DNA from: Asparagopsis taxiformis
Taxonomy: Eukaryota; Rhodophyta; Florideophyceae; Bonnemaisoniales; Bonnemaisoniaceae
Reading direction: 5' to 3'
Assembly (NCBI GenBank): GCA_030407315.1
Contig: JALQPE010001878.1
Location: 62,001-126,000 of the forward strand
DNA length: 64,000 nucleotides
Below, piece after piece: positions 1-64,000 of the stretch; positions within the stretch are counted from its first letter, which is position 1, and every line of letters starts with the position of its first letter. The notes under the pieces were generated by a model. It was not told the DNA's origin and ran no database searches. It saw only the letters and a program-made list of their open reading frames with translations. The translations under genes were made by a program, and so were the position numbers.

Positions 1-187
1 ATAGATACGAGACATCAGGAAACCAGCCAGACGATAGTGTCAAGTCGAAGGAATAGCGCAGAGACAGGTAGTGGAATAGTCGAAGTAGGAAGGGGCGAGG
101 GTATCCGTCTTTACTAGAAATTGATGGCCACAGGAGCTCTAGAATGGAATACCCAGGAACAGGATAACTACGGATAGGTGTGCTTTA
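1..187. other. Window edge, non-coding
   Basis: Sequence downstream (3') of the first leftward gene. I see no gene, repeat or palindrome in it. The left boundary of module A may lie here or outside the window; no terminal inverted repeat could be identified. Confidence 0.5.
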
Positions 188-1549
188 TCATTTTTGCTCC
201 GGACTGCAGGTGGCAGGTGGAGGAGAGGGAGGGTGGGTAGTGTCTGAATCCGCATTGAAGCCAAGACGAGAGATAGCCTCATAGCCAATGTCTTCAAGCT
301 CCTGGCATGTAATAGTACCACTGAAAATACAGCAAGGTAAGCGTAGATGTAGTGTACCAAACGTCTCTGCGGTTGAAAGAGGCTGGAAAGTGCTGTAACA
401 AGCTCGGCGCTGAATACGTCTCCACAGTAACGAAAACGTTGCTCCATAGGTAACAGTAGCCTTATCACGTAGGTGGAAAGAGTCCACGATGCTAGACTGT
501 GATAGTTGGCTAAGACATAGGGGATGTAAAAATGTATTGTTGACGTGGTCAAACTCGTAGGAGTCTCTGCAAAGAACTGTCATACGTTGGTCTGGGCTGG
601 ACAGGACGTAAGCAGATGAGCCGACGAGAAATGCGGAAGAAGGAGCATCATGAGAGCAATCAACGTCGACTAGATTTCCTAAAATTCGGACAATCGATGA
701 GCTGCCTCCATCGCGTTCCGCCCTGCTCTTCACCAATATTTTCTGGAACCCGTGTTGCGAGGTACCTATGGAGTCACATAGTGCCTGAAAGGTGGGGAAA
801 ATGATGGAAAGATCCGACTCATTTGCAGAGGGAAAGGTGATGTCCTCAAAGGACGGCTGGAAGAGAACGTCACGATTCTCTTTCGCCTTGCATTGAATGG
901 CAATAGTGCGGAATTGAGCAAGGGAGCAGTCGGCCTGTACTCTGACTTCTTCTTGCGATGTTTGTCGCATTCCCCTGGAGTGCTCGGATTTCGTCATCCG
1001 GAGGGAGAGGGGCTTGTCTGTGTACACACCAAGCTTCTGAAACAGAATGCTACATACAGTCAGAGCAGAGGAGGTCATGGAACTGTTGGAATCGAATGGA
1101 GGGGGTAGAGGATGTTTGGCAGCTGATTCCAGCTTTTCCAATCTTGCCAGCATTTCTGCTACGGTCTTCTTCATTTGATCCGCAGTGCAATCTTGAAGGA
1201 TGCCGCGGTGGCGGTGGCGAGTGTGGTCAATGCCGTAGTCCGGGTCTCTCTCTGCTGGGGATGGAGGTGAGTCCATACTGCGAAGCTCACCACTTCGCCA
1301 CGGGAGAACCCTTCCGGAATCCTTGTCGACGAGCTCGTTACGATCTGAAATCTTGACTTGAGAAAGGGTAGAGTCGAAACCATATTCAGCTTTGTATTCG
1401 AGCAATGCATGGAGGAATGGGTCTGTTTCAGTCTTGACCTGAGTAATTTCCTTGACGATTGCAGACCACCAGACAATTTTTCGTTTCCTCCCAAACGGCC
1501 GAAGTTGCCATTGAACTTCTATAACGTCGTTGGGAGCGAGAGGAAGCAT
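188..1549 (-). CDS. Conserved protein with possible SH3/Tudor-like N-terminal barrel (module A copy)
   Basis: A 453-aa ORF starting at an ATG on the minus strand. It is clearly homologous along its length to the 462-aa protein at 43,839-45,227. Shared N-terminal blocks are VIEV-W-LR--GRK-K-VWW-A-V (about residues 9-32), an E(Y/H)GFD block near residue 55, and a DSG--L-WR-GE block near residue 77. This tight run of beta-like, aromatic-rich segments resembles a Tudor/SH3-type barrel, but no signature is strong enough to name the family. The rest carries shared blocks such as a 'KPLS-K-TKSE' stretch, 'ADCSL-QF' and a C-terminal 'LP-CIFSG--C-ELE-IG' block. It faces away from the ParB-methyltransferase-SET gene, with about 0.5 kb of shared upstream DNA, as in module B. 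A reader or adaptor role is inference only. Confidence 0.7.
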   Translation of the reverse strand: MLPLAPNDVIEVQWQLRPFGRKRKIVWWSAIVKEITQVKTETDPFLHALLEYKAEYGFDSTLSQVKISDRNELVDKDSGRVLPWRSGELRSMDSPPSPAERDPDYGIDHTRHRHRGILQDCTADQMKKTVAEMLARLEKLESAAKHPLPPPFDSNSSMTSSALTVCSILFQKLGVYTDKPLSLRMTKSEHSRGMRQTSQEEVRVQADCSLAQFRTIAIQCKAKENRDVLFQPSFEDITFPSANESDLSIIFPTFQALCDSIGTSQHGFQKILVKSRAERDGGSSSIVRILGNLVDVDCSHDAPSSAFLVGSSAYVLSSPDQRMTVLCRDSYEFDHVNNTFLHPLCLSQLSQSSIVDSFHLRDKATVTYGATFSLLWRRIQRRACYSTFQPLSTAETFGTLHLRLPCCIFSGTITCQELEDIGYEAISRLGFNADSDTTHPPSPPPATCSPEQK

Positions 1550-2063
1550 GTTGGGATAGCTATGGAATGGAATTGTTGTAGTAGTGGAAGCCTAACCGTT
1601 ACCTTCTGCTAAAGAGTAGTATATACTAGGAGGATTGGAAAGGTCGAGAAGAGATGTTTAGGTGGTGTCGAAATAGAATGGACAATTGACAAAATTGACA
1701 CGTCAGTGTGGATGATGTCTGCCATGACCTGATTGCAGCATAAAATTGGATGCGAATAGTCGTTCTAGAATTGAATGTCGGATGCATACGATTGGACTAC
1801 AAATATACGTTTAGAGATGTTACGGGGCCCAATAAATTGCATGGAAACAATATTTTGAGTATTACTTTAGTATTACATTGAATATTGAGCTAACAGTCGA
1901 TATAGTTAACTTGTAAAGGTTCGGAAAGGGGTGGAAAGGAAACAGCCACCGAAGTGCTACCACTCGCTGACACTTTCTTTTAAACAACCAACTTCTGCTT
2001 TGCGCCACCCTGGTCAAGCAGCAACCAACTATCCCTTTCTTAAAAACTCTACCTTTGTTCGCC
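1550..2063. promoter_or_regulatory. Divergent intergenic region between Tudor-like gene and ParB-MTase-SET gene
   Basis: About 510 bp separate two divergently read genes, so both promoters must lie here. It is AT-rich in the middle (1,740-1,900), with a weak inverted repeat, CAATATT...AATATTG, around 1,847-1,888. The ATG at 2064 sits in a good Kozak-like context (GCCATGG). None of the TACC(C/G)GGTA palindromes found at gene 3' ends occur here. The exact promoters cannot be placed. Confidence 0.45.
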
Positions 2064-3917
2064 ATGGAAGGAACGTTCCACAATCACGGTGAAAAGCACG
2101 ACGGATGGGTGTTCATCGACCCCAATCAAGTCAGCAAATTCGTATCGATTCGCGATGTCGATGGAAGTCATGTGGAAGCGCTCATGGAGAGCATTCGTGA
2201 CAGCGGTTATGAAACAGCTCATCCCGTCACTGGCAGGTTTCGAGAAGGCGTTCTGGAGATATTGGGTGGAGCGCACCGCTGCATGGCAATTGTACGTGGA
2301 ATGGAGAAGGGCGTCTTTCCTCCTGGCGTTACGATTCCTATGCGAGAAGAGTCTATCGTGGCGGACACCAACAGCAGTACTGCTGTTGTGCTGGACCGTG
2401 TGAGAGCGACGACATCCAACGACATTGCAGGCCTGCAAAGGCGCATGATGTTTTTGGAGTATCTGATGATCGCCGTTGATCTCAGAGACGAGTACTGGGT
2501 CCAAAACGGGAAAGACAAGTACGCTCATATTTCGTCTGTGAGGATGGCTGATGTGCTGGGCTGGATCAAATCCTGCGATCCAAGCGGCCAAATTGCTTCA
2601 AGCCTGAGTAGTAAACCGCAGTACAGCTCATGCATGTCTATCCTGGCTGTGCTTCGGCCGTATCACCGAGCTGAAGATTCGAGTGCAATTGATTTGCGTC
2701 TGTGGCAAATGTTTTGTCATGCATGGGGACTCAATGCAGAGATGGGTGATTCTCCGAGGATGGTTGAGTTTCCGAAACAGGTGGGGGTGACTAGTTCTCG
2801 TGCCGTCGAAATGTTTGGCAAGACACCCCGCGGAGGATTGTCCTCTCCACTGAACCGTGAACTGCTTTCGAGCAGGTACTTTCTGGACGGCGCTACATCC
2901 GACATGCAAGATTCTTTGCAGGCTAGCCAGAAGCGGTTCAGGAGGCTGATGGCTATGATGTGCCAGTGTATCTTGGCTATTCGCAGTAAGGAGATGGGTA
3001 GTGTGCCATCTAGGCGGGCCAGAGCCACATCCAGGGCCATTGGTGGTGGTGGTGGAATGGTTGGAATTGCAACATCCAGTGCGCAAGCCAACCGGCTTGG
3101 ATTTGTTGTCGACCGTGTGTTAGCTGCGTGGGATACCGGGGCAAGAGTGTTGGGGTATGAGGATGTTGAATCGATGTGCTGGCCGTTCATGGTATTCGAT
3201 CCTGCGAGCCTTTGCTTCAGGTCACTCCCGAATCGGTCTGATGGCTGTGCGGTCGAGGAGCATCGAAAAAACCTGACCGTTGCCCCGAAAACTGTAGACA
3301 GTGAAAACGGGTTCTGTGCCGACCTTCCAGTGGCTGTGGATGCAAGGCTGCGATCATTGACAAGCGCCTTCCTGCTGTCGATACGCCAATGTGTCACTGA
3401 GGTGAATGTTTTCGCCGAGCGTGGTCAGCTGATGCAGAGACTTCGAGCCTTGCTTTTCGACACTCCTGACAAGTTCGGATTGAACTCGTTCATGCGAGCC
3501 AAGTTGAACACGTCTCATGCCCTGGATGGTCAGAGGAGGCTGAAAGCTTGGTTATTGCGAACCCGAGAGCAACGAAAGCTTCCTCTGACCATGGATGAGT
3601 TACACAGTCTTGAGGATACGCCCGAGCCTGGCATCCTTGAAGGTGCACCTGCGCAGATGGAAATATCCGCAGCAGTGCCAAACAATGGCAGCGAAGATAT
3701 AGAAGAGGATAGTCTGGAGCCACAGAGGAAGAAGGCTAGGCTGGAGCGCGGTGGTGGAGAGGACGATAATGCGGCGGTTGCTAGCGAAACAGCAACAAGA
3801 GAAGGTGCGGCCGAGGATAACGCTATGGAGGTTGACACTGTGTCGCCTACAGAAGCACCGCTCGTTGACATCGGAAGGAAACCAAGCCAGAATATGTCAC
3901 CAAGCTGGAAGCTGTGA
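2064..3917 (+). CDS. ParB-like N-terminal half of a ParB-methyltransferase-SET protein (module A, frame-split)
   Basis: Start chosen at ATG 2064 (Kozak-like GCCATGG; the next upstream in-frame codon candidate is not ATG). It encodes about 617 aa. The N-terminus matches the ParB/Srx fold: a 'V-IRDVDGSHVEALMESI' helix block, then 'LGGAHRCMAIVRGM', the equivalent of the ParB GERRxRA box II (the module B copy has LDGAHR). A helical middle region follows, then a charged linker with a basic stretch (PQRKKARLE) near residue 553 that could be a nuclear signal. It ends in TGA at 3915-3917. The module B homologue continues without interruption into the methyltransferase, and homology in this locus continues in the +2 frame from about 3,869. 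The stop therefore results from a frame change at about 3,869-3,890: mutation, assembly error or programmed shift. Confidence 0.85.
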   Translation: MEGTFHNHGEKHDGWVFIDPNQVSKFVSIRDVDGSHVEALMESIRDSGYETAHPVTGRFREGVLEILGGAHRCMAIVRGMEKGVFPPGVTIPMREESIVADTNSSTAVVLDRVRATTSNDIAGLQRRMMFLEYLMIAVDLRDEYWVQNGKDKYAHISSVRMADVLGWIKSCDPSGQIASSLSSKPQYSSCMSILAVLRPYHRAEDSSAIDLRLWQMFCHAWGLNAEMGDSPRMVEFPKQVGVTSSRAVEMFGKTPRGGLSSPLNRELLSSRYFLDGATSDMQDSLQASQKRFRRLMAMMCQCILAIRSKEMGSVPSRRARATSRAIGGGGGMVGIATSSAQANRLGFVVDRVLAAWDTGARVLGYEDVESMCWPFMVFDPASLCFRSLPNRSDGCAVEEHRKNLTVAPKTVDSENGFCADLPVAVDARLRSLTSAFLLSIRQCVTEVNVFAERGQLMQRLRALLFDTPDKFGLNSFMRAKLNTSHALDGQRRLKAWLLRTREQRKLPLTMDELHSLEDTPEPGILEGAPAQMEISAAVPNNGSEDIEEDSLEPQRKKARLERGGGEDDNAAVASETATREGAAEDNAMEVDTVSPTEAPLVDIGRKPSQNMSPSWKL

Positions 3918-5533
3918 TGGGGCGTTACATTCACACTGTGAATTGTGACGCCACTGATGTAGCCAAAGAGGTGGAGGACAAAATTAGTTTCCTGGAAGAT
4001 GGCGTGTTGGAGGACAGTGTTCAGCTTGTGCTCACTGATCCTCCATTCCACACGAGGCGGGAAGGCGGCAGAGAAAACTCAGAGTACGATATTCTAGAGC
4101 CGGAAGAGTTGGCGAGTGTTGCGTGTGAAATAGTTCGAGTTCTTCGGCCTGGCGGTCATGCTCTGATCTATTCCAGCGTGCGCCAACTCGTGGCATGGAT
4201 GGATGCAATCAGAAATGCCGAGCCTGGCAAGATGATTGTGGACAGTGTTCCAGTCGTGTTATCTCGCCGACCACACAGCTTTACGTCCAATCCATCGACG
4301 AAAACGTGCACACTGCATAATATGCACGATTTCGTTATCCATGCGTATAAGCGGGGGAAGGGTATGGCTGCGTACGATATGGTGGATTACAGGTTGCACA
4401 ATCCGGACATATCGAGGCACCCTGGGTTCACCAACGCGATTGACAACGTTCCGAGGTTGTCGGCTGGTGAAGCTCAATATGATGGGCAGAACAACCGACT
4501 GCGCCATGAGCAGAAGGCGTTGACCACTCTTCGTGAGCTTCTGGAACGATTTTCGAAGCAGAACGATATCGTGATGGATTTCTTCTCGGGAACGTACAGC
4601 ACAGCCATAGCGTGTATGACGTTGAGGGATGGTACATATCGTCGGTTCATTGGGTGTGAGAAGGAAAAAAGGTGCCACGATGCATCGCAGGAGTGGATAC
4701 TGCATGCTTTCGTCAGTGAGGTGAAAGCCGGGCGATATGGGGGGATCTTGCAGCGTGAGGTGGAGAGTATTCTTGGGGACGAGTTGGTACCGGTCACAGG
4801 AAAAGCTCCAAGGCTTCGTCAGAAGCACATCTCAGATGCACCAGAAGGATTCCCTGCTGTGACAGCATTGCCAAACCATCTGCTTGTGTTCGTTGCGTCA
4901 ATGAAGAAGGACGGGTCTATGCTTCACAGATTGAGCGGGGTGCCTATGGACCAGTGGCCGGCCGAGGACATGCACTCTTTTTGGAGCATAGACCCGGACG
5001 CGATTCTGGTTGCTGATGCCGCATTCTACGGTGTCTATGTTTCGCAATCGGAGGTAAGAGGTGGTGGGTTTGGCGTATTCGCGGCGAAGAAACTGAAGAA
5101 GGGGACGGTCATTGGCTGGTACAACGGGACGATTTTCTATGCGAAGATTCGAGACTCGGAACCGCAGAGATCAGTGATGTACGGCCCGGAAGGATTTGGG
5201 TGCACAGGAGAGAGGTTCCAGGACTACAACATGGAATTTGAAACCACGTACATAGGGAGGGGTGCACCTGTTCGGAAGGTTTGGCTCGTTCCAGCGGTCT
5301 ATAATTGTACCAGCTACCTCAATGATTGTCGGGTCATTGACGGAACGGAGAAAGCGACCGAGATGAGTCGAACACAGTCAGCCGAGTCTCGACAAGGCGA
5401 TGCCATATACAAACCGGACTTTGCTTCAAATATCAAGAATCCCCATGCTGTCAAGGTCGTTCTGACCAGAGACGTTGAAGCTGATGAGGAGATATTTGCT
5501 GACTATGGTAGAAAATATTGGCCAGCCAACTGA
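3917..5533 (+). CDS. DNA methyltransferase plus SET-domain half of the frame-split ParB-MTase-SET protein (module A)
   Basis: The first in-frame ATG is 3917, overlapping the upstream TGA as ATGA. The frame is open from 3,869, and residues upstream of the ATG (a YVTKLEAVMGRY stretch) still align to the module B protein, so this is probably not an independent start. Beta-class amino-methyltransferase order is visible: motif IV TDPPFHTRR at about 4,034, then motif I-like 'VMDFFSGTYSTAIAC' and 'FIGCEKE' at about 4,570-4,665. A SET domain follows: GFGVFAAKKLKKG with 'GWYNG' (about 5,068-5,130), 'CTGERFQDYN', 'CTSYLNDCR' in place of the usual NHSC segment, and the terminal 'EEIFADYGRKYW'. The expected activities are N6-adenine or N4-cytosine DNA methylation and protein-lysine methylation. 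Neither specificity can be read from sequence. Confidence 0.85.
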   Translation: MGRYIHTVNCDATDVAKEVEDKISFLEDGVLEDSVQLVLTDPPFHTRREGGRENSEYDILEPEELASVACEIVRVLRPGGHALIYSSVRQLVAWMDAIRNAEPGKMIVDSVPVVLSRRPHSFTSNPSTKTCTLHNMHDFVIHAYKRGKGMAAYDMVDYRLHNPDISRHPGFTNAIDNVPRLSAGEAQYDGQNNRLRHEQKALTTLRELLERFSKQNDIVMDFFSGTYSTAIACMTLRDGTYRRFIGCEKEKRCHDASQEWILHAFVSEVKAGRYGGILQREVESILGDELVPVTGKAPRLRQKHISDAPEGFPAVTALPNHLLVFVASMKKDGSMLHRLSGVPMDQWPAEDMHSFWSIDPDAILVADAAFYGVYVSQSEVRGGGFGVFAAKKLKKGTVIGWYNGTIFYAKIRDSEPQRSVMYGPEGFGCTGERFQDYNMEFETTYIGRGAPVRKVWLVPAVYNCTSYLNDCRVIDGTEKATEMSRTQSAESRQGDAIYKPDFASNIKNPHAVKVVLTRDVEADEEIFADYGRKYWPAN

Positions 5534-6383
5534 GCTACTTTGATAGATTTGAGTAAACACGCATTGGCAGAGACAATAGACTGTGCATCATCTTCCAAGA
5601 GCGCTAGATATTATAGACTACACTACAACAAACGTGATATGACTGCAGGAAGGCATCTGCGGCCTGGAGTGCAAACTACGTACTTTTCTACTGCTATACC
5701 TATGGGTACGACTAGAAGAGAAACTAGAAAGATGTGGGCGAGAAATTGCGTAGCAACACAGCATGTAGAACACCAGGAAGAGAGTAATGTAGGAGAAGCA
5801 GTCACACCATTACAGTGCGGGCCGTTTACCGGGGATGCTGACAGCAAAGTCATCGTAACGATGACTTTGCTGTAAGGAACCCTGGTAAACGGCTTCGGCT
5901 GTAAGCAGCAGGGAGTTTCGTCCTTCTCCCACATCTTGGTAAAGGTGAGAAGCGAAGTTGGAAGTCGGGAAAATTGCTCAGCAAAGGTCTGTACGGCTGT
6001 GAGCAGCTCTCAGGAGTATTTTACCTCACGTGGTCTCTGTTCAGGGGTATACCCTGTATATATATAGGTAGCCTAGTGTAGGTGGGAAGATAGACGAAAA
6101 TGCTACCAATAATTTATCACAGTGACGGCTCTCGTAGTCGAAATCTGCGCGTTGTCAAGGGTTGAAACTAGTCTCCCCCTACGGCCTAGCTAGTAAAATC
6201 ATACAACGTTGTAGACTAATATTAAAAAGTAGCAAGCAATCTGCTGAGTAGCACTAAACTATGAGATGAAGGACAGATGTATAGATGGAAATTGAAAAGT
6301 GGGCTAAGATAACAATGTTGAGATGAGAAAGACATAACTTTATAGCAGGGAACAGTAGTATAGGTTTTAATACTTCTGATATG
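5534..6383. other. Convergent intergenic region with palindrome
   Basis: 850 bp between the 3' ends of the methyltransferase gene and the first dioxygenase gene. It holds the fold-back at 5,810-5,904 (separate entry) and an AT-rich tail (6,050-6,380) with no supported gene. Small ORFs over the hairpin are palindrome shadows. Confidence 0.6.
5810..5904. repeat. Nested hairpin repeat (module A palindrome type, single unit)
   Basis: Three nested inverted arms: outer TTACAG...CTGTAA, then GCCGTTTACC...GGTAAACGGC, then a central near-perfect stem with arm ACAGCAAAGTCATCGT and its complement. The same architecture recurs, enlarged, at 10,223-10,430 and 10,959-11,192, and truncated at 39,853-40,005. 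The position, between the 3' ends of the methyltransferase and first dioxygenase genes, equals that of the 114-bp array in module B. Confidence 0.9.
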
Positions 6384-9300
6384 CTATCTATTGCTCCTAT
6401 CGTACTTGTAATATTCGACGGTGTGGATGTGGTCCGTGAGGACGTCCTTCTCCGTCTTCAAGTAGATGTGGCCGCGCGTGGGCAGGCCATAGACTAACTT
6501 CTCGCCTGCAGGAAGATCTCCTCGGCTGAAGCCGACCCCGTAATGGTAAAGGTCACCGCGACCAACCAATACGGAATAGGGTGGCACATAAAGCCTATGA
6601 ATGGGAACCTTCCACATATCGGCGTCCGGATTGGCCAGGCATACATGACTATAAGGGGCAGCTACTATAGAGAATCCATCTGCTCCGCTCGACATCATGA
6701 AATATGATGGAGACTCGGTAGGTCCTGCAACACGACTCGTTGATACCTTGAAGTCCGTGTGCCCATCCTGGTCCGCAGCCTCATCTGCTGTAAGAAGCAG
6801 CCGCAATCCTGTCTTCGGGAAGAAGACAGGATCATCACCCTCCATTCCCAACTTCAAGAACTCCGCACAAACACCAAGAGCAAGCTCTGCCACCAACTTG
6901 TTCTTATACATCTCCAAATTTCCCTCCTCCAGCTTGTCGCACAACTCACGCCGCGGCAGAGTGAGGCGCCCACGACCACCATCGATGCGGTCCTTCGCGT
7001 CACCCACGTTGTGGATAAACTGCCACGGCGAAGGATCGAAGCCGGGCTTTGCGAAAGCTGGCGGCTCGTCCTGTGGCTCCCTGTCGTCATCATTAGAATC
7101 AGACTGCTGGGAGGGTTTTTCAACCTCCTCAACCAGCACGAACTGCCTAGCGAAGTGACCGAACAACTCATGCGTCGCACTACCAGCCGTGGACGATGCC
7201 AACAGGCCTTCCATAACAATAACCCCCAAGTTTTCCAACAATGCCTTCTTCACCGCAAAGTACCTGTCCACCACCGTATCCTCAGCACCCGGCGATGCAG
7301 CTGCCTGGAATGCTGCTGCCCTCATTTCCGCCCGAACCGTCTCCACCGTCGTACTTTCCATATAGTACTTCATCCGGCTGCCAGACGCAATTGCGCTGGG
7401 GAGAACGGCGGCCACATTCTCATCGACGATACTGTCGGGAATGGGATTCTCCTGGGCGTCGTCGAACTGGAGAACCGGCTCCCGAGAGCGACCTCGGGAA
7501 GCCGATTTGGATTTCTTTGACGACGACTTTGATGAAGTCTCACCGAGCCTTCTCTTTTTGGTAGAAGGCTCGGGCGTCGCAGAAGCGGCTTCCAAGTTAC
7601 GCTTCCCGAGGATGGAGTTTTCACCCGCATCCTCGGGGGCGCTCTCCAGCTCGACGACCTCCACAGCAGCACCAGCCGTTCCACCACGACCGGAACGACT
7701 CGATTGCAGACGGGTACTCCTTCTGGGCATCACTTTCCTCCCAGAAGTTTCCACTCCGGACGGTGCAGAATCACTGACTTCGATAACATCCCCGTCAGGA
7801 TCTGCACCGCCCTTCGCACTGCTGCCCTCGACCACATTCTCGGGAGTAGGGCCCTCCGTCGAAATCCTCGCAACCGTCTTCTGTCCAGCCCCACCGGATG
7901 GTGAAGGGACGAAACTGTCATCGCTGGAGCTTCCCGAACTGCTAGCAGATGCAGAACGGGAAGCTTCGACAGCGAGGGCCGGAGCAGCAGGGTGCTGCTC
8001 GGCAGCAGGAGTCGCAGGCTCAGGCTGCGAAGCCGGTGAGACCTGCTCCTGCGCGGCTTGGACAGGACGGTTGGGGGCACCAGTCCCGGCGTGGGAAACT
8101 GGACCAGAGCGTTCGCTGCCATCCTGGGGACCACGCGCAGTCGGCTTGACCGGGGTCACCGCAGGGGAGGATGCAGACACGGCAGGGGTAGAGCCAGGAA
8201 CAGGGTAAACCTCGGAATCGCTGGAAGATTCCAGTTGAGGTGGTGGGGGCAAAGGAATGGAGGATGAAGGGATGGGCAAGGAAATGGAAGAGGAAGGGAT
8301 GGGGGCATCATCACCACATGTGGCTGGGAGCGCAGCGTGTGGGATGTCTGGGTACATCGCGTGAAAGCGTTTCCGCATAAGCATGTCGCGGTACCCAGTG
8401 ACGCGCAGGAGCATTTTCCTGGCGTCCTTCCCGAAGACAGACTTCTTACGGGGAAAAATGTTCTCCGACTTGTAACCATCGGGGGGACCTTCCTTGGGAC
8501 GGAAGTCTGCCCAGCACCCCTTCTTGGGGACCATCTGAGCAAGAACATCGACAACGCGCGAGCGAATGTCGAAGCTCTTGCTCGGGTCACCCACGCTGGG
8601 AATTGAGCCATCCAGCATCCTCATCACATCCGAAACGTTCCAATACTCCGCCACCTCCTTCACGTACCCGAAGATTTCCAACAAACCAGCAATCCATTCC
8701 TGCCCAATGGTACCAACCGAGTACGGTTTGAGCCCGACCGACCGACGGTTACAAGTGTAGCGCGCCGTCATCTCCAGGATGAAACACTTCTGTACATCCG
8801 GAGCACTCCTGAACGACCCATTGAACAACAAGTTCACCCTACATCCAGCCAGATCCTCCGTCGAAGACAACTGCACGAACTCCGGCCTGTTCGGAATACT
8901 CGACCAGTACTTGAAAGCAGGGCTTTCAATGGTCTTGAAACCTCGGGCGATGGAGACGTAGCGCATGAGCTGTCTCGGACGAATCCAGCTCAGCGCTTTC
9001 CGTTCTTTAATGTATTGAACGGTCGGCTCGATCTTCTTCTTTCCCAGGCGGTGGATATTGATGAACTCCATCACAGAGCACACATTGTCAGCAACTGTTA
9101 CCTCGCTGACATTGTGGGTGTGGAAGTTCATCAGCCGTGAAAGCGGGAGTACTTCTTCGGAGCAGAAGACATCCCGGCCAAGCCGAGTCGGTGGGAGGAG
9201 AAAGTCGACTGGAATAGTTCCAAATCGACGGTAAATGTCTGAACTGACAAACTCCTCCCATTCTGGACTGTCCTTCGCAGGAGCAGGTCCAGCCGACTCG

Positions 9301-26530: not shown

Positions 26531-26531
26531 G

Positions 26532-28004: not shown

Positions 28005-28005
28005 C

Positions 28006-41030: not shown

Positions 41031-41040
41031 AAAAAATGTA

Positions 41041-55587: not shown

Positions 55588-58500
55588 TCACTTCAATTTC
55601 GAATTGCCCTCCCAATGTCCAACGACATATTCTCCTTCTTCACTTTGATGCTGCTCAGTTTTGAGGAATATGTGAGATCGGATCGGGAACTTGTATTGAA
55701 GACCCTTATTGCTCTCAAATCCTTCCTCGTGGTGATAAACATCCCCTCGGCAGACAAGAACAGAATATGGTGGTACTTCACACCTCTTCATTGGAACTCT
55801 GTATAACTCTCTGTTGGGATGGGATAAACAGACATGACTGTAGGGTGCAAGCACGAGGCCGAATCCATCTGCGCCGCTTGACATCATGAAGTAGGATGGC
55901 GGAGAAGGGGGACTGTTAACTTCATCGATTCCCACTTCATAGTCTGTATGTCCAGCACGAGGTTTAGTCCGCTCTCCAGTCAGCACTAAAGTAGTTCCAG
56001 TGCTGGGGAAGGCCATCGGGTCCTTCCCACTAGTCCTCAATTCCAAACATTCCGCACAAATACCTAGACCGAGCTCAACAATCATCTTCTTCCGATAGAG
56101 ATTATTATTGTTATCCTCGAGGTCATCACATAAGCTCTTCCGCTTTGTTATAAAGATTCCTCTGCCCTTCTCACCTTCTTCATCAGAGTTTTTCCCATCC
56201 ATCATAGCCATGCACCACGGTGTCCAGTCCGGATCTCTGCGGGTGTCACCGGATTCAGAGTTCTTCTTGGCATCCTCGAGACGTTCCTCAAACAACGCAG
56301 AAAAATGAAGGAGCAGTTCGTGGATCGCATCTGCAGTAGTAGAAGACTTGAATATTCCGTCCAGAATTGTAAACCCAACCAAGTCTATTTCATTTCGTTT
56401 CTCTCGGAAATAAGCCCTCGAGAGAAACTCAGCGGAAACATTTTGTGCCGAATAGGCACTCGCTGCTGCTTCAGCGACCTCGGCTCGAAGCGTATCGACC
56501 AGTTTCCCATTCACATAGTATTTCATTCGACTGTCGGGATGAATGATAACAGGCAGTTTCGCTTCTATACCTTCCTCCACATCTTTGTCAGGGACATCAT
56601 TTTGTTGCCTGTCCGAATACTGACCTCCTTGAACCGCGTGGACTGCAGCGTCTTTGCCGGATTGCAAATTTGCGTCTTCACGCATCTTTTGCTTCTTCTT
56701 CTGCCGCGGCCTGCTGGTATCCTCTCCCACCAGGTCAATAACCTCTTGAGGGGTGACATCCACCAATTTCCGTTTGGATCGTAGAATCATTGGCGGCGTC
56801 TCCGTATTCCTCGGCTTTGCCTTTAAGGGCACGAAACCACTGCTGTGCTTGGCTGTCATCAACTTCCTAGGCGTAGAACTGGTAACAGGTGTTTCCGTGT
56901 CCTCCAGCTCAGGTAAAACAGGTAGGCCGACATCCGCTGTAGATAACATAGCGTCTCCAGTGCCATCACCCTGATTTCGTACACCTTTCATCGGGTCCTC
57001 CGTTGTCCTTCCAGAAGAATGTTCGGGACATTCTTCGCGGACATCTTTCGTTCCAGACCCATCGCTCTTCCTAGATTCAGGACCTCCTTCACCATCTCGA
57101 CCAGTTCTTGGATGACCAACTGACATATTCGCCGGCGACTTTCCACCCTGCTCTGGTCTGAGCGTGGCACTTCCGGCTGCCACTGGGCTAGGTGATTGTT
57201 GCAGGTCATTTTCATCACCGTGGTCATTTCTTCCTCGATTTGCACCAGCTGGTTCAAGCTCTGGAGTTCCTACGTTCTTCTGCAACACATCCCCAACTTC
57301 ACAATCTCCAGGTTTCGAAGAATTGTTCTCGGTAGGCGCAGTAGGCACTGCGCGGTCCGTTGTAACCTGCTTTGCGCTTTCGGAATCTGCCGCTTTCCCT
57401 GTCGCCTCTTCACCAACCTGTGTTGCAGCACCGACCTCAGCGTTAACACGATCCGATATTTCCAGACTGCCCTGTGTCTGCTGTTGGGTAAGTACATTTG
57501 GACTCTGTACCACGTCCGAGCGATCAATGGCAGCATTTGAAGTATCACCATACGATGCGGATTGTTGTCGTGGTTGAGGTGCAGTATTCCCTTCCAAGGA
57601 TTTTCGCCTAGTCCGCCTTTCCTGCACACCTATTTCAGGCGCGACGGAATGGTCGAGAGAGTCATCCGATAGAATTGGGCCGTTGAAAACCACATAACGG
57701 ATTTCTTTCATCATAGACCGCGTCAATGCTGCACGTATACCTCTCCCAGTTGGTGCGTCGGAAGGATAGAAATCTTTGAGGACAGTCAAAATGCGATATC
57801 GTATGGTTTTTCGTGTTCGTCCACCTGGCTCCGGTACTTCATGTAACTTCCTGAAACATGGATGAGGTGAGGAATGCCAGGAGTTTTCTTTCCGTACAGC
57901 TTTCTCAAGTATGTCATATATTTCACACATGCTGTAGCACCACTTTTGCGCGCATGTCTTTAGACTTATACCACCATCTCCTTTCCTACGTTTCCACATC
58001 GTCCACATTGCAGTGAGCTCTAGAATGACAAGTTTGGTGTCCACCGAAGCTTTTCGAAACGCAGAAGCGAATAGGACGTCCACAGTGCATCCCTGCATAT
58101 TCTTCGAGTCTGGCGGACTAGTTTCAGTTGCAAATCGACTTGGGATAGCTGACCAATGTTCGAACGCCGGGTTATTTACGTCTCCGAAGCCCTGCGCAAT
58201 CGAAACGTACTTCATCATGATTCCTTCCTGACAACCTGGAATGACCTTGTTCTCGACTACAACTTTTGTGCACACATTTACCTTCGCCTTCATCAAGCCC
58301 TTCATCATCATGAACTTCATGACCGTACAGACGTGGTCAGCAATAGAAACTTCTATCACGTCATGAGTCTTTTCGTTCAGCTTCTGCGATATTCGCATCA
58401 CTTCAAGAGGATGAAACATTTCACGGGTTCCAGGTGGTCGGATGAAGTCAACGCTAATGCTCCTCAGTCTCCATCGATCAGCAACTGTCGGTTTGTTTTC

Positions 58501-59112
58501 CACAATCGACTGCAAAGCGCTGATACGATGACCTCCATCAATGCACTGCAGTTTCTTCCGTCCGTCTGACCCCATTGTTTCACAGATGGTCATTCGGGTG
58601 CCAGTTTCCAGAAACCCCTCGGTAGATATTTTGCTGACCAGATCGCGCACTCTGGCCTCCTGCACAAGACGAGAAGTTGATTCCGGTTTGGCAACATCTA
58701 GCGGATTGATCATTTTAGGTTCAGTCCTGCATTCGACAATGTTGATGTCAATCCCCATCACAGACTCTTCTGATGCTTCCATGCCAGCAGGACTCCCCTC
58801 GCCTTCACGGACGTTAGACCTCTCCCTGTTTTTCGATTTCACCGTCCCAGGAGTAGATGGAAAGCGTAGAGTGTTTTTCCCAGATGGTGATATATCACCA
58901 AGGGTTTTTGCTGCCTCTATCATGGCAGCGTCTGCTCCCTGAATGGGTGTCTGGCTATCTGCCGTCTCCCTTCCCGCTGCAGACGGAGTCCCTCCATCAC
59001 CAGAACCTCCGGAGGGTGTTTTATCACCGCCTACCGTCGTTGCAAGTCTCTCTGCAACGCTTTCGACGGTATCCTTTGGTTCCGCAGCGCGCTCAGTGTC
59101 GCTTCCGGCCAT
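55588..59112 (-). CDS. ParB-like / 2-oxoglutarate-Fe(II) dioxygenase-like fusion protein, type I (module B)
   Basis: 1,174 aa from ATG at 59,112. An acidic/Ser-rich leader precedes the ParB-like domain: 'TSRLVQEARVRDLVSKISTE', box II DGGHRISALQSI (about residue 191), and 'THDVIEVSIADHVCTVMKFM'. A helical region follows (AEHW-type 'FEHWSAIPSR', 'ILELTAMWTMWKRR'). A roughly 400-residue disordered linker carries basic patches (RPRQKKKQKM). The C-terminal region starts at SRMKYYVNGK: 'GHTDYEVG' (HTD about 1,055), 'MMSSGADGFGLVLAPYSHVC', 'PPYSVLVCRGDVYHHEEGF' (distal His about 1,127), and Arg in PIRSH. Closest relative here is 6384-9695 (shared 'PSYFMMSSGADGF', 'APYSHVCL'). The reaction is unproven; hydroxylation of methylated DNA or of a histone is the obvious hypothesis. 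Confidence 0.82.
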   Translation of the reverse strand: MAGSDTERAAEPKDTVESVAERLATTVGGDKTPSGGSGDGGTPSAAGRETADSQTPIQGADAAMIEAAKTLGDISPSGKNTLRFPSTPGTVKSKNRERSNVREGEGSPAGMEASEESVMGIDINIVECRTEPKMINPLDVAKPESTSRLVQEARVRDLVSKISTEGFLETGTRMTICETMGSDGRKKLQCIDGGHRISALQSIVENKPTVADRWRLRSISVDFIRPPGTREMFHPLEVMRISQKLNEKTHDVIEVSIADHVCTVMKFMMMKGLMKAKVNVCTKVVVENKVIPGCQEGIMMKYVSIAQGFGDVNNPAFEHWSAIPSRFATETSPPDSKNMQGCTVDVLFASAFRKASVDTKLVILELTAMWTMWKRRKGDGGISLKTCAQKWCYSMCEIYDILEKAVRKENSWHSSPHPCFRKLHEVPEPGGRTRKTIRYRILTVLKDFYPSDAPTGRGIRAALTRSMMKEIRYVVFNGPILSDDSLDHSVAPEIGVQERRTRRKSLEGNTAPQPRQQSASYGDTSNAAIDRSDVVQSPNVLTQQQTQGSLEISDRVNAEVGAATQVGEEATGKAADSESAKQVTTDRAVPTAPTENNSSKPGDCEVGDVLQKNVGTPELEPAGANRGRNDHGDENDLQQSPSPVAAGSATLRPEQGGKSPANMSVGHPRTGRDGEGGPESRKSDGSGTKDVREECPEHSSGRTTEDPMKGVRNQGDGTGDAMLSTADVGLPVLPELEDTETPVTSSTPRKLMTAKHSSGFVPLKAKPRNTETPPMILRSKRKLVDVTPQEVIDLVGEDTSRPRQKKKQKMREDANLQSGKDAAVHAVQGGQYSDRQQNDVPDKDVEEGIEAKLPVIIHPDSRMKYYVNGKLVDTLRAEVAEAAASAYSAQNVSAEFLSRAYFREKRNEIDLVGFTILDGIFKSSTTADAIHELLLHFSALFEERLEDAKKNSESGDTRRDPDWTPWCMAMMDGKNSDEEGEKGRGIFITKRKSLCDDLEDNNNNLYRKKMIVELGLGICAECLELRTSGKDPMAFPSTGTTLVLTGERTKPRAGHTDYEVGIDEVNSPPSPPSYFMMSSGADGFGLVLAPYSHVCLSHPNRELYRVPMKRCEVPPYSVLVCRGDVYHHEEGFESNKGLQYKFPIRSHIFLKTEQHQSEEGEYVVGHWEGNSKLK

Positions 59113-59374
59113 TGCAAAGATTTGGACGCGTAGAGAAGCCGTTCAGGATGACAAAGACACCTTTTCTCTCCGACTACACGATCAAGAGATATTCCTCTTT
59201 CAAGGTGGTATTTGGCGGGAAACGATCTCCCTACACGTTTAAACGTGAAATATCAGTTATTGATTCACCTTCCACGCGCTCCAATTGTATTCGGCCATCT
59301 GTCATTCCTCGACGAAGGACTTCCCACACACAATTCCTTCGTTCCCAAAACCATCCCATTGCCATGAATCATAG
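59113..59374. other. 5' flank of the type I dioxygenase gene
   Basis: About 260 bp, promoter expected. It includes the palindrome ACGTTTAAACGT at about 59,235. No other element recognised. Confidence 0.45.
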
Positions 59375-59770
59375 TACTCCACTTGTCACTGGAGCCAGAA
59401 AACTATACCGGGTATTATTTTCCACTGCATTGGCCAGGTGCCGGCTCCCCATTGGCAGCAGACAGCAATCAGTCACAATACTCCACTTGTCACTGGAGCC
59501 AGAAAACTATACCGGGTATTATTTTCCACTGCATTGGCCAGGTGCCGGCTCCCCATTGGCAGCAGACAGCCATCAGTCACAATACTCCACTTGTCACTGG
59601 AGCCAGAAAACTTATACCGGGTATTATTTTCCACTGCATTGGCCAGGTGCCGGCTCCCCATTGGCCAGCAGACAGCCATCAGTCACAATACTCCACTTGT
59701 CACTGGAGCCAGAAAATTATACCGGGTATTATTTTCCACTTCATTGGCCAGGTGCCAGCTCTCCATTGGA
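59375..59770. repeat. ~105-bp tandem array, four core palindromes (module B)
   Basis: Cores ACCGGGT at 59,407, 59,511, 59,616 and 59,721 (spacing 104, 105, 105), each as TATACCGGGTATTATTTTCC. A second dyad in each unit pairs GCATTGGCCAGG with CCCATTGGCAG-type sequence, again a CCATTGG box as in the other arrays. The last unit is diverging. It lies between the type I dioxygenase start and the transposase stop. Confidence 0.95.
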
Positions 59771-60028: not shown

Positions 60029-63000
60029 CTATGCTGAACGTGGTGGGTATCCATCTTCTCTAGTTAAGACGCTCACTTCACCACCAGAAAGAATATCACT
60101 ATTGTGCTCTACAATGCCACTTTGTCTATCGTATGAACAAACTCCTGACTCGCAGTTATGTACGTGCAAAACTTCTCGGACCCCGTCGTTCATTTCAACG
60201 TGAACTATAGTATCATTCCCACCTTTCCGGTACATACCGTCTCCAGTGCATGTCAAGGGAATGCAGACAGCATATGGAGTTTTCTGCTTCCATTTCTTTG
60301 CCTTCTTCTCCTCTCCTTGCCCTACCACAATAAAAAAGGACAATGTGACGAAAAGGACACGTCTGGAACATGTGAATTCCTCCATGCTCGTCCTGCTATG
60401 GGCGGGTACTACTATACCAGCATCATACCATCCATCTTTGCACACTGCTTGAATGATGCTTCCAGGTTCAGCACGCCCTAACCTCGATTCGCTCTCAGAT
60501 CCCTCATGACTAGTGCGCACTCTTTGTGCAGCAGTGAGCCACCATAGTCGTTCACCATGTTGAGACCCGTTTACCTGTCTGGTTCTGAGAAAAGTTTCAG
60601 AAGCTTTACGTATCCTTGCCATCATGACGGTTTCTTCTGCCGGAACATTTTTCGCGTCTTCAACAGATTCCCCTCGCCACCGCGTGATTGGACAGTGGGT
60701 GCTCACCATAGTACTGCTCCTCTCTGATATGAGATGGAATACAGGACTTAAGAAGCATCTTTTTGCTGCCTCTTCTGTCGCATGTGGACTCTCCGAAATT
60801 CCTTTTCCTAGTGCAAAATACACGCGTCTGCAATCGGCAGACGTCCATTGTTTTGTATTGTGACCTACCGCACCCAGCGTGATGGCTATTCGTGCGAGCC
60901 AGTCATCGGCCATGATGAGCTCCATTGATGACAGATGTTCATTCTTATGGTTCGAGTTTCGAACCCCTCTTTTAAGAGGCTGGTGCATTCTCTCGAATAA
61001 AAGCTCTTCCACATGTTTCGCAGCTCCAAAAGCTGGTAATGTATGTACGCAAAATTCTATCAACCGATGCATGTTCGGTTTGTCCAGATGTTTCATTGCA
61101 ATAGGATCCTTCTTGCATACCTCATGCAGTTCTTTCATATAGTCTGAAACAAGAGCTAGAATGTGGTCATGACGTCCGCCATTCTCGGCCTCGAACCTCC
61201 TGGTTGACTCAAGTCCATCTATCCACCATGTTGGGATGAATCGAATGCTGGCAACAACCATTTGAAACTTTTTCAGCAAACGAAGAATACGTTCAAGTTT
61301 TTCATACCCGTCCCAAGAGTTCCCGATGACGATACGAAATGCCGAATAAAATGCTTGGGGAGCTACAACGAGAACAGCGAATATATCGCTCATGTTCATC
61401 GATAATAGGTAGTTCTGCCCGAATACCTGACTCTGACTACTCAAACAGAACATTCGGAGGGTATTCAGTAGAACTGTTTCCGCAACATTTCGAAGTACAG
61501 GTGTTGCTGCGGTGATTGTGGCATTCATCACATCTTGAGCCAGTCCGGAGAGCAGATGGTCTGGGGCAACTACAGCAGAGCGATATGGATCGAATTGACA
61601 AGGAACAACTGGAACTCCTTCTTCGTTTGTAGGAACTCCTCTCCGCACACGATTAAGGGATTCACTCAAATTATGGAGTGCCTTATTCTCAATCGGATCT
61701 AGGCTTAGTCCAAGAACTTTGAGCTGATCTTGCGATGCGACTTCCCTCACAAGCTTGTTTCGGTGCATTCCTCGGGCATGCGTACTCATCTGACTGTTTA
61801 GCAATGCTGTGTATGCATTTCGTGAACCTCCACTGCTGCTCATATCTTGCTTTTCGAAAATGCAGCTATGGCATGGTGTATTACTGGTGTGACCACGGAC
61901 ATCCAGAGTATGCGAAACAGCTGGGTAATCTCCGATAAATCCAACAGGATCCAGGAATATGACCACATCTTCTCCATTTGCATCTTTCGCTGGAAAACCG
62001 TCTGTACTTCCCTTCACAATGTCGGGTACAACTCTCTCAATTACAACATTTGTTGAAACTCCCGGGGGAACGAATCCAAGAACGCGGACTGCGTGGAAGC
62101 TTTCTCTCTTGCTTGGCTGTATGCCTAATGGAAGCATATAGCAGCCACCAAAACTTCCTTTCCGGCTTGTGAACGGCTGGAAGTCATCAGCATATAGCAG
62201 AAATCGGTATACGATATATTTCCTGCCATCTGAAAGATTCCCCTCACTGCAGGCATCCATACGTTTAGAGCCGGGGTGCCATCTAGACCTCTTGTCTGGA
62301 GCTCCTATGAGCTGGACGTCTTTCACCCGAATTTGTTCGCGATGTAGCTGCCCAGTTGCTCCCCTTGTGGAGCAAATGAGAAAAGTCGCATGTTCAGAGC
62401 GTCCCTTTTTCAGATGTCTGTTCACGAGTAGTAACTCTTCAAATGTGCTCCCATCAGACTTACTTTTTGGCCGAAACAGAGTGATAGCGTCACCTGCCCG
62501 AATATCATTGTTGCAATGTTCTCCGTCGAGCGTTGTGGTGGAGACGACACGCCTCGCATTTCTTTTCTCAGTTTCTTCCATTGCATCGATTTGCGGGTCT
62601 ATCACATCTTCCATATTTGATTCTTGTTGTTCTTCTCCGGTTGCAAGATAACTTGCAATGATGATAGCTTCAATTCTCCAGTCACTCCTTGCTGTAAAAC
62701 TTCTTCTGCTCCTAGAATTCTTTCCAGTTTCGATGTTCTTTCCCTGTTTCGTTCTGGCTCCTCCCAGCTTAGCCACCAGGGCCTCTTGATTTGTCGTCGG
62801 CATACATATGATCCTCAACTCGTCTCCATGTCGGGCGTATACCTTTCTGTGCATCTTGTGACCGTCATGATCTGATGCACTTACCGAAATGCGATGGAAT
62901 GGGTCATTCAGAACAGCTGAACGGCATTTGACAATGAAAGAGTTTTCAATACTTTCTGAAGCAATTTGATATGCTTCATCTTCTCTTTCATCACTACTAT

Positions 63001-63730
63001 CCCTTTTACTAGACTTTATGCAGTCCAGAATGGGTCCGGTCTGTATATCCCTTTCCGCCCATGTGCTCGGTAGCACGACTCGTACCGATGTAGTACAATG
63101 AGCTCTACGGCTACTAGACAGTCCTGGAGACATCTTTCCAAGCCTAGAGCCGCTTTTTGTTACATCTATTTCACACGTTGTATCCATGCTTTGTGGGAAA
63201 CATGTTTTCAGAATGAACGGTAAAATGACTTTCCTCATGTACGAGTCGCTAGGTGCTTGATCCGAAATGTCCCGCTTGAAATTAGACATCTCACGCATAC
63301 CTTCATAGTCCTTGCGTTTCATCCGTAGCGTTCCACTAAGCAATATTATTGCAGAGAATACTGGCCAGGTCAGCAGTTTATCCACAAGTCTGCGGTCATC
63401 TTCCGCTGCCTCTTCTCCGTCGTGGTCATCACAGCTCTCGGCCGAGCTTTCCTCAGAGCCTATAGTTTCTTCTTCTCTCGTAACTTTTCCAGCCTCAAAA
63501 AATGCAATGTGCTCTTCTCCATTGCCACTAGAAATATTCTCGTCTTCAGCAGATGCTTTTCCGACGTTTTCGTCCGGTATATCGGCGTGAACCTCGAATG
63601 TTTCGTTCGAAACTAGCGGGGTTTCCCCATTTTCGTGCCTTGTCCCACTTTCGTATGGGATTGGCAATGATTCAAACCTTCTCCGGGTTCTTCGAGGTGT
63701 ACCTTTCTTCCGAACAGCTGTTCGTTTCAT
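60029..63730 (-). CDS. CACTA/TNP2-like (KDZ/Plavaka-like) DDE transposase
   Basis: 1,233 aa, ATG at 63,730, intact. An acidic, disordered N-terminus (about 1-110) precedes a core resembling TNP2-family (Transposase_21-type) transposases: 'LLYADDFQPF' (about residue 513; compare the family's TDGFxPF), 'SFGGCYMLPLGI', 'RVLGFVPPG', then 'GFIGDYPAVSHTLDVRGHTS' continuing to NTPCHSC (about 595-620; compare DxPA...GH/GW...CPxC). A possible zinc-binding CxxC lies in that segment. The third acidic catalytic residue could not be placed with confidence. The C-terminal quarter is what survives as the remnant in module A. It would excise and insert the module; nothing here shows activity. The residues between motifs are unusual enough that the exact clade is uncertain. 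Confidence 0.8.
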   Translation of the reverse strand: MKRTAVRKKGTPRRTRRRFESLPIPYESGTRHENGETPLVSNETFEVHADIPDENVGKASAEDENISSGNGEEHIAFFEAGKVTREEETIGSEESSAESCDDHDGEEAAEDDRRLVDKLLTWPVFSAIILLSGTLRMKRKDYEGMREMSNFKRDISDQAPSDSYMRKVILPFILKTCFPQSMDTTCEIDVTKSGSRLGKMSPGLSSSRRAHCTTSVRVVLPSTWAERDIQTGPILDCIKSSKRDSSDEREDEAYQIASESIENSFIVKCRSAVLNDPFHRISVSASDHDGHKMHRKVYARHGDELRIICMPTTNQEALVAKLGGARTKQGKNIETGKNSRSRRSFTARSDWRIEAIIIASYLATGEEQQESNMEDVIDPQIDAMEETEKRNARRVVSTTTLDGEHCNNDIRAGDAITLFRPKSKSDGSTFEELLLVNRHLKKGRSEHATFLICSTRGATGQLHREQIRVKDVQLIGAPDKRSRWHPGSKRMDACSEGNLSDGRKYIVYRFLLYADDFQPFTSRKGSFGGCYMLPLGIQPSKRESFHAVRVLGFVPPGVSTNVVIERVVPDIVKGSTDGFPAKDANGEDVVIFLDPVGFIGDYPAVSHTLDVRGHTSNTPCHSCIFEKQDMSSSGGSRNAYTALLNSQMSTHARGMHRNKLVREVASQDQLKVLGLSLDPIENKALHNLSESLNRVRRGVPTNEEGVPVVPCQFDPYRSAVVAPDHLLSGLAQDVMNATITAATPVLRNVAETVLLNTLRMFCLSSQSQVFGQNYLLSMNMSDIFAVLVVAPQAFYSAFRIVIGNSWDGYEKLERILRLLKKFQMVVASIRFIPTWWIDGLESTRRFEAENGGRHDHILALVSDYMKELHEVCKKDPIAMKHLDKPNMHRLIEFCVHTLPAFGAAKHVEELLFERMHQPLKRGVRNSNHKNEHLSSMELIMADDWLARIAITLGAVGHNTKQWTSADCRRVYFALGKGISESPHATEEAAKRCFLSPVFHLISERSSTMVSTHCPITRWRGESVEDAKNVPAEETVMMARIRKASETFLRTRQVNGSQHGERLWWLTAAQRVRTSHEGSESESRLGRAEPGSIIQAVCKDGWYDAGIVVPAHSRTSMEEFTCSRRVLFVTLSFFIVVGQGEEKKAKKWKQKTPYAVCIPLTCTGDGMYRKGGNDTIVHVEMNDGVREVLHVHNCESGVCSYDRQSGIVEHNSDILSGGEVSVLTREDGYPPRSA

Positions 63731-64000
63731 CTCTTCTCTTTGGATTCGAGAGAACTTTGCACAAATTGTAGATTAATGTCAACTAGTAGGCAACTAATGA
63801 GATGGTATCCGTCTCTTTTTAACCAGGCCACTGTAATAGTTTATAGTACCTATATTTTCTTACCGTTACATCTTATCGAAAACTTCACACTGAATAGTGT
63901 CCTACCTAACTCAAGGAACAGGTGACTTGATTTCCCATGTTGGGTTCTTCAGCGATCTTTAATGCCTCCAACGATTCCTGCTTCCTTTTCTGAATGAAAT
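63731..64000. other. 5' flank of the transposase gene, window end
   Basis: 270 AT-rich bp with no gene. It contains GGCCACTGTAAT (63,826), a half-copy of the arm seen inside the module A fold-back at 10,340. By analogy with module A, a rightward coiled-coil gene should follow beyond the window. Confidence 0.45.

Follow-up and report, generated by a model that had tools for sequence, protein, structure and literature searches.

Two blocks of look-alike genes lie side by side in one stretch of red-algal DNA and raise the question of whether they are copies of a single local block or members of something that moves. The stretch, here called the window, covers 64,000 nucleotides of the florideophyte red alga Asparagopsis taxiformis (C1754:62001-126000, where C1754 is the analysis label of the window contig; negative positions lie upstream of the window), and it was studied against a genome of 141.5 megabases in 3156 contigs, the others being labelled C107, C582 and so on. 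A plastid-type RbcL is encoded in this genome, with 8bdb, the Griffithsia monilis structure, as its nearest solved relative, in agreement with a florideophyte host. The two blocks belong to two transposon families, designated E1 and E2, which are related, of great size and active in recent times, and the sequences make it almost certain that both are giant DNA transposons of the Plavaka/CACTA type. E2 looks autonomous, and its genes and ends are listed below.

41012 to window-equivalent 66339 (C1754:128339, past the window end): element E2, 25,328 base pairs (bp), or 25.3 kilobases (kb); left limit exact at 41012, limits shared among copies.
41012..41071, + strand: E2 left terminal inverted repeat, beginning CACTACCGAGTTTGAG and followed by subterminal repeats of the ACTGCCTGAGGCAGT type.
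41710..43233, + strand: E2 gene 1, 507 amino acids (aa); its E1 homologue lies at -1571 to -109 (+), outside the window.
43839..45227, - strand: E2 gene 2, 462 aa, labelled "Tudor-like" (domain unconfirmed).
45959..49468, + strand: E2 gene 3, 1169 aa; ParB-like N-domain, helical region, beta-class amino-methyltransferase and SET.
50957..53929, - strand: E2 gene 4, 990 aa; ParB-like N-domain, Pro/Ser/Thr-rich linker and C-terminal HTD...YH...R motif (putative 2-oxoglutarate (2OG)-Fe(II) oxygenase).
55588..59112, - strand: E2 gene 5, 1174 aa; paralogue of gene 4, alike in architecture.
60029..63730, - strand: E2 gene 6, 1233 aa; Plavaka/CACTA-type transposase.

A preliminary description of the window had stated that the members of every gene pair are homologous and occur in one order and orientation, and this was borne out when each protein was compared by tblastn with an 84-kb contig stretch around both modules. 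The two modules themselves also stood, but their extents had been drawn too short (E2 occupies 41012-66339, while E1 begins at -2520 and ends at 41011), and the genes listed were all recovered but a sixth shared gene, that at 41710-43233 (+) in E2 and -1571 to -109 (+) in E1, had been missed. The shared set consists of six genes, encoding the gene 1 open reading frame (ORF), a tudor-like protein, a fusion of ParB-like, amino-methyltransferase (MTase) and SET domains, two ParB-like proteins with a 2OG-oxygenase-like motif, and a transposase. Identity between E1 and E2 amounts to 39-42% for gene 1, 32.5% for the tudor-like protein, 35% for the ParB part and 51% for the MTase-SET part of the fusion, 29-46% for the oxygenase-like proteins, and 28-36% for the transposase.

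Evidence for mobility comes first from the ends of E2. In the CACTA/EnSpm-Plavaka (CMCT) group, elements terminate in CA(C)...(G)TG and generate a target site duplication of 2-5 bp, as given in PMC12730594. The termini of E2 read CACTAC...GTAGTG and are exact in all 12 left/right pairs (CACTACCGAG...CACAGTAGTG), so that the group's terminal signature is present in 12/12 paired copies, which read CACTACCGAGTT...GACACAGTAGTG at their ends, and copies are dispersed. The first 27 bases of the element (one position being R) have 34 exact copies genome-wide and none in the reversed control, and subterminal ACTGCC repeats are present at the ends. Six further E2 copies were fetched as long pieces; the left limit equals the window's 41012 in five, and the sixth, C107, aligns from 42521 on and has an exact left end, in the same orientation, approximately 12.6 kb upstream. 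The right end is common to all three other long copies, two of which stop at window-equivalent 66339 and the third six bases further, with identical terminal bases.

The target site gives a more mixed picture. Flanking sequences match over 2 bp in 4 of 11 testable pairs (C107, C582, C337 and C718; P 0.0035 for 4 or more of 11) and over 3 bp in one pair (C2588), with neither in the other 6/11; copy C2257, whose left flank ends at a contig end, was left out of this test. Pairs without a flank match may be mis-joined or recombined copies. When the C582 flanks are joined and the shared AT collapsed, the resulting sequence has 834 genomic matches when up to 3 mismatches are allowed, every match listed being exact, which reads clearly as an empty site within a high-copy repeat, with a 2-bp duplication. 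The flanks of paired E2 copies are all different, except for a left flank common to C582 and C1984. The insertions C582, C1983 and C1984 lie inside the high-copy repeat (834 matches) with nearly the same left flank, which suggests either target preference or duplication of one insertion.

The second family, E1, is less well preserved in the window, and its parts are as follows.

-2520 (C1754:59480, outside the window) to 41011: element E1; its right part is lost to the E2 insertion, and Gypsy elements break it up at 13.76-38.24 kb.
188..1549, - strand: E1 "Tudor-like" gene, with 93 scored genomic copies.
2055..5533, + strand: E1 ParB-MTase-SET gene, split here; the uninterrupted relative P0002 (1155 aa) is 97-98% identical.
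6384..9695, - strand: E1 first ParB/oxygenase-like gene, 1103 aa.
11418..13777, - strand: C-terminal part of the E1 second ParB/oxygenase-like gene, placed by alignment of P0038.
38426..39190, - strand: N-terminal part of the same gene, with the ParB-like domain, placed by the same alignment.
40130..41011, - strand: E1 transposase remnant, truncated by E2.

The E1 left end, CACTACGGTGTTGGG..., is matched 811 times in the genome when up to 2 mismatches are allowed, whereas the reversed control is not matched at all. Its distance to the E1 tudor-like gene is 2.71-2.72 kb in the window and in nine further cases among partial lists of co-occurring matches (C228, C356, C374 twice, C411, C427, C452, C667 and C671), while on other contigs in those lists, including C116, C123, C278 and C615, the two stand at unrelated distances. 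The left end of E2 lies inside the E1 transposase gene, of which approximately the last 300 residues are left: the relative P0040 is ~97% identical to E1 up to 41009-41012 and has no match past that point. E1 and E2 are adjacent in the window because E2 is nested inside E1. The right flank of E2 gave no transposase match, and as assembled the E2/E1 junction therefore does not have the form of a clean insertion.

A local segmental duplication of one gene block would explain why the same gene order occurs twice side by side, but it would not lead one to expect pairs at 28-51% identity, separate termini, separate dispersed families, or the exact end of one block inside the other; its probability is practically negligible, and it was rejected on the shared ends of dispersed copies and the low identity. 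The modules, which the preliminary description had taken for duplicates of one block, are instead two families that have diverged, with E2 inserted into E1. Its proposal of a large DNA transposon, with ends of the CACTA type and a transposase resembling Plavaka/TNP2, by contrast, was upheld by the shared ends and by one empty site with a 2-bp duplication, and the genome search returned neither singly scattered genes lacking common ends nor a simple segmental duplication.

The damage to E1 in the window extends beyond its truncation. The MTase-SET gene is broken into two ORFs (2055-3917 and 3914-5533), and the second oxygenase-like gene, followed by alignment of its uninterrupted relative P0038, is in pieces at 11418-13777, ~27.2 kb and 38426-39190. 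Within this gene, at 13756..38239, lie two Gypsy long terminal repeat (LTR) retrotransposons in opposite orientations, outside the transposon's own gene set; the pair is 98-99% identical over long arms and ~0.2 kb apart, with C-termini that are chromodomain-like by eye. The right end of E1 was not found in the single copy followed (C436), which continues into a third, more distant MTase-SET family (L069, C436:180001-188000), 34-37% identical to E1/E2 in the MTase part and seemingly frame-broken. Upstream of the window, the E1 left end interrupts a ParB-like ORF of 480 aa with a phrog_1033 match (L009:6057-7499, +), which presumably belongs to yet another element family with a ParB-like protein.

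Both families have been active recently. E2 genes compared with 3 to 6 other copies, some partial, differ by 0-11 substitutions per gene, and indels occur in gene 4 only, where they sum to multiples of three in each copy. For the tudor-like genes, only the best of the first-look candidates were scored (92/1266 for E2 and 93/1191 for E1), so that the copy counts are lower bounds from which decayed copies are left out: all 92 scored E2 copies are full-length at 98-100% identity, one with a stop, and all 93 scored E1 copies are full-length, 98-100% identical and stop-free. Selection was followed in 20 E2 tudor-like copies from the lower part of the scored list, of which L053 was dropped, being 3 bases longer. 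The 19 more diverged copies that were retained, one of them with a stop, carry 90 distinct changes, counted against the window copy rather than on a tree, of which 39 are synonymous, whereas the observed spectrum would lead one to expect 23.5 (P about 1e-4; dN/dS about 0.46). These values indicate that the E2 tudor-like gene is under purifying selection.

What do the proteins of these elements do? Among aligned transposase members, D515 (34/34), D601 (35/35) and E913 (34/34) are conserved, and we infer that these D and E residues are catalytic; C620 and C623 are present in 35/35. The DDE transposases of the CMCT group are characterized by a C(2)C motif between the second D and the E and by an H(3-4)H motif, according to PMC12730594. 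The former is present here as C620-x2-C623; as regards the latter, H725, H888, H896 and H916 are conserved, and no conserved pair of H residues at 3-4 spacing was found in the transposase. The Plavaka profile PF18759 matches 2/35 members (best E 5.2e-4), E2's own transposase not being one of them. The transposase groups with Plavaka/CACTA.

An integrated virus or virophage-like element would agree with the large size and with the prokaryote-like MTase and ParB domains, but a transposase and CACTA ends are present. Moreover, the 131 loci that match the fusion profile (80/107 viral relatives plus 51 prokaryotic) all do so in or near the MTase, none reaching SET, the other element proteins tested are matched by none of these 131 loci, and the oxygenase-like profile has no match in viral contigs. 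A viral origin is thus very improbable.

The fusion protein would combine writers of two kinds. Its MTase part is a beta-class amino DNA methyltransferase by the N6_N4_Mtase profile, the DPP[YF] motif and the fold. The SET domain scores above the Pfam cut-off in both window proteins and at E<=0.1 in 33/36 fusion members, and its catalytic positions N1098 and Y1160 are retained in 34/36 and 32/36. The usual SET motif is NHxC; since ND stands in its place, SET activity is not assured. MTase-SET fusions recur among metagenome proteins (36 relatives, P0001-P0036), with the ParB box in the closer 6/36.

The ParB-like N-domain is matched by phrog_1033 at residues 38-131 (E 1.3e-5), with a second match on the L009 ORF (E 6.9e-4), and its GxHR-type ParB box is invariant in 5/5 aligned ParB-like N-parts; Pfam scans of these proteins gave no ParB match. 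The "ParB" label is consequently supported, although weakly by profile. The two proteins that follow in the gene order have C-terminal domains in which HTD, YH and R are invariant in 4/4. The signature of 2-oxoglutarate/Fe(II) oxygenases is HxD...H...R on a double-stranded beta-helix, and the earlier "dioxygenase" label holds as regards this HTD...YH...R motif, but as regards nothing beyond it. Membership in the TET/JBP group, also suggested earlier, found no support: Tet_JBP had no Pfam match in the scanned proteins and no genome hits, the control genomes being equally silent. The "Tudor-like" label is likewise unconfirmed, with no Pfam family at E<=1 and no PHROG match for either protein, and a Pfam scan of the E2 gene 1 protein placed no family above the cut-off. 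Nothing useful came back when the alignments of the oxygenase, the ParB region and the transposase were searched as profiles against PDB.

Could the accessory genes simply be captured passengers, playing no role for the transposon? Extra genes are frequent on giant transposons, as described in PMC12477816. The same six-gene order is nevertheless kept in two families at 28-51% identity, the tudor-like gene shows signs of purifying selection, and MTase-SET and transposase apparently occur together on metagenome contigs, twice; passengers are, on balance, improbable.

Between its genes, E2 carries four arrays of palindromic sites and E1 a palindrome of its own.

43528..43727: E2 array A1, 2 palindromic composite sites, unit ~91 bp; between convergent genes 1 and 2.
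49618..50630: E2 array A2, nine 114-bp units carrying a composite dyad site; in the spacer of the convergent genes 3 and 4.
54397..55264: E2 array A3, 7 composite dyad sites, period ~117 bp; between genes 4 and 5.
59343..59769: E2 array A4, 4 units of 104 bp, composite dyad site; between genes 5 and 6.
5810..5904: nested palindrome of E1 with core TTACAGCAAAGTCATCGTWACGATGACTTTGCTGTAA; in a spacer of convergent genes.
10214..11193: cluster of four E1 palindrome cores of varying perfection.
39931..40009: E1 palindrome; between the oxygenase-like gene and the 3' end of the transposase.

E2 contains 22 cores of the form TACC[CG]GGTATTA, all of them in the four intergenic arrays (A1 2, A2 9, A3 7, A4 4), with none in coding DNA, in the divergent spacer of genes 2/3, or in the rest of the 84 kb. 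The same arrays hold 16/16, 36/36 and 26/26 cores in three further E2 copies. The unit sequences differ between the four arrays, which have one dyad layout in common: CCAATGG-N8-CACYTGG-N13-AAAATAATACCSGGTATTATTTT-N13-CCARGTG-N8-CCATTGG. Units within one array are not independent and the four arrays are the fairer count; with this in mind, the inner right half-site CCARGTG stands 13 nucleotides (nt) from the core in 17 of the 22 and at 11-13 nt in all 22, and the left half-site CACYTGG at 13 nt in 16, while the outer CCAATGG is found at 28 nt in 13 and CCATTGG at 26-28 nt in 14, A1 and A4 lacking some outer half-sites. Array size varies among E2 copies (A2 5-16 in 6 copies; A3 2-11 and A4 3-14 in 4 copies each; A1 always 2) while the genes barely differ, a variation to which assembly collapse or expansion of tandem repeats may contribute. 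Genome-wide, the 23-nt E2 core occurs 1786 times and its reverse never. At C19:27456-30065, 22 exact E2 cores follow each other at ~118 bp spacing, in an array far longer than the seven-site array of the window.

The palindrome of E1, CTTACAGCAAAGTCATCGTWACGATGACTTTGCTGTAAG, occupies 3/4 equivalent places and is partly nested in larger inverted repeats; the spacer between E1 genes 1 and 2 has none. Its 31-nt core has 9734 genome-wide matches at up to 2 mismatches, and none when reversed. A role of the arrays as subterminal transposase-binding sites was rejected because the arrays have an internal position; ACTGCC repeats of a separate kind are found at the E2 ends.

A different explanation is that the palindromic arrays serve as bidirectional terminators, poly(A) regions or insulators, with the enzymes acting on host chromatin or on donor DNA in transposition. 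All six E2 genes have an array on their 3' side and the divergent spacer of genes 2/3 has none, as would suit terminators. The conserved parts, which are dyad half-sites at fixed distances (for CACYTGG and CCARGTG, in most cases 13 nt away from the core), are less readily explained in this manner; the spacers are unconserved and by eye non-pairing, which points to multimeric protein binding rather than a hairpin, and a different palindrome stands at 3/4 equivalent places in E1. The terminator explanation is thus doubtful.

The best explanation overall, with roughly an even chance of being correct, is that the accessory proteins constitute a self-targeted chromatin-control system. The transposase would move the element by its ends; the ParB-like domains, present on three proteins, would bind the family's own palindromic composite sites between genes; the fusion protein, once at the arrays, could add an amino-methyl mark (N6-methyladenine, 6mA, or N4-methylcytosine, 4mC) to DNA and also methylate histones; and a methyl mark may be removed or oxidised by the two oxygenase-like proteins. 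The net effect would most likely be that the element is marked as its own and kept expressible, in the manner of the VANDAL/VANC system discussed below. That the element modifies itself, as the preliminary description had proposed, is plausible, and for sequence-specific self-targeting through the arrays the chances appear evenly balanced. They fall somewhat short of even for the complete arrangement, in which parS-like dyad sites of three tiers, a ParB-like aiming domain shared by a DNA-and-histone writer and two possible erasers, and a site and aiming domain that change together by family would form one self-aimed control system. Anti-silencing as the direction of the effect is a tentative suggestion made by analogy.

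The opposite direction, in which the system would act to silence the element's own copies or their relatives, either to restrain copy number or to mark them against a host nuclease, is unlikely but has points in its favor: the joining of DNA and SET histone methyltransferases in one protein would fit heterochromatin-type marking, and H3K27me3 has been described on repeats of the red alga Cyanidioschyzon (PMC8566409). Possible erasers, together with recent amplification into nearly identical copies, would appear to fit activity better.

Several observations weigh against a self-targeted system as a whole. The phrog_1033 profile matches only 2/36 fusion members, and of the six fusion proteins with a ParB box two are this species' own, several of the 36 being short; comparison of the ParB regions of the fusion and oxygenase-like proteins gave an hhalign probability of 9.4% despite an E value of 0.0035. 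A structure search with the fusion model listed methyltransferases throughout, the ParB-like part and SET lying outside its reach. The oxygenase-like proteins have no match in Pfam scans, and their fold model is poor (predicted local distance difference test, pLDDT, 36.1), leaving the fold unconfirmed. Selection was measured on one accessory gene, a matching 2-bp duplication accompanies only 4/11 E2 end pairs, and the position of the E2 arrays at gene 3' ends also fits a terminator role. Finally, the host C5-cytosine methylase PF00145 gave 0 hits in the genome, in an exon-by-exon search that was positive in 10/14 control genomes, these being prokaryotic, and that is subject to assembly gaps. 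An eraser of 5-methylcytosine (5mC) would be left without an obvious substrate, as no host PF00145 was found; 5mC erasure as the main role is weakened accordingly, and any mark that is laid down would more probably be amino-methylation or methylation of histones than 5mC. Red algae differ among themselves in this regard, since Gracilariopsis chorda has been reported as methylated (PMC8566409).

If the self-targeted system is real, an algal transposon would have built its own chromatin state from prokaryotic (ParB, amino-methyltransferase) and eukaryotic (SET) parts, providing a direct test system for the contest between transposon and host silencing in a genome with no detected C5-cytosine methylase. 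It would also bear on 6mA/4mC as a real eukaryotic mark and on the filling of red algal genomes with giant elements, and the two palindromes (1786 and 9734 sites) would predict the exact places of marks and proteins.

Parts of this arrangement have counterparts in known systems. Chondrus crispus has enlarged EnSpm/CACTA elements of 16-20 kb with 4-5 ORFs (PMC6431247, after Kojima et al. 2013), alike in being red-algal, CACTA, very long and provided with extra ORFs; compared by size and ORF number, E2 has six genes in 25.3 kb. ParB-MTase proteins are known on green, red and brown algal transposons (PMC12477816, which cites Petroll 2025 and Iyer 2011 for similar proteins on transposons of green and red algae), and its authors suggest that a protein of this kind could bind the transposon that carries it and modify it. 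The example given there, Sola1-1_Ec32 of Ectocarpus, is a transposon of 21.5 kb whose 1104 aa protein joins ParB-like and N4C/N6A methyltransferase parts; it differs from E1/E2 in transposase superfamily, and the text available mentions no SET fusion, oxygenase-like genes or cis arrays. The fungal TET+ DNA transposons (Kojima 2025, PMC12730594), Plavaka/EnSpm among others, carry a captured dioxygenase that has been proposed to act against silencing; theirs is TET/JBP, whereas here there is no Tet_JBP match, no host C5-methylase was found and a ParB-like domain is attached. The bdelloid rotifer N4C methyltransferase N4CMT (PMC8885841) is related to the extent that structures 8s9m/n/o were met in the search with the predicted fusion model.

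The literature searched gave no description of the full gene set, to that extent in line with the earlier statement that no such element was known, nor of family-specific composite arrays, although ParB-MTase algal transposons and the Chondrus elements are in print. The main threat to novelty lies outside this comparison, in the work of Petroll and colleagues from 2025, in which the genome of the red alga Bostrychia moritziana is reportedly expanded by giant Plavaka transposons.

VANC-type anti-silencing entails an encoded protein that binds a motif and removes methylation. The anti-silencing system VANDAL/VANC of Arabidopsis (PMC5735166) involves an element-encoded protein whose motifs lie in non-coding tandem repeats, differ between relatives and change rapidly in copy number. 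A family-specific motif in non-coding tandem repeats was found here as well, with a presumed role as target, a likeness of working and not of homology; binding has been shown for VANC, while for E1/E2 we infer it. By this analogy, VANC is the closest working counterpart of the E1/E2 arrays. VANC is not known to carry enzyme domains of the E1/E2 type. Algal ParB-MTase transposons and enlarged red-algal CACTA elements were thus already known, and what is new here is that each family has its own intergenic palindrome.

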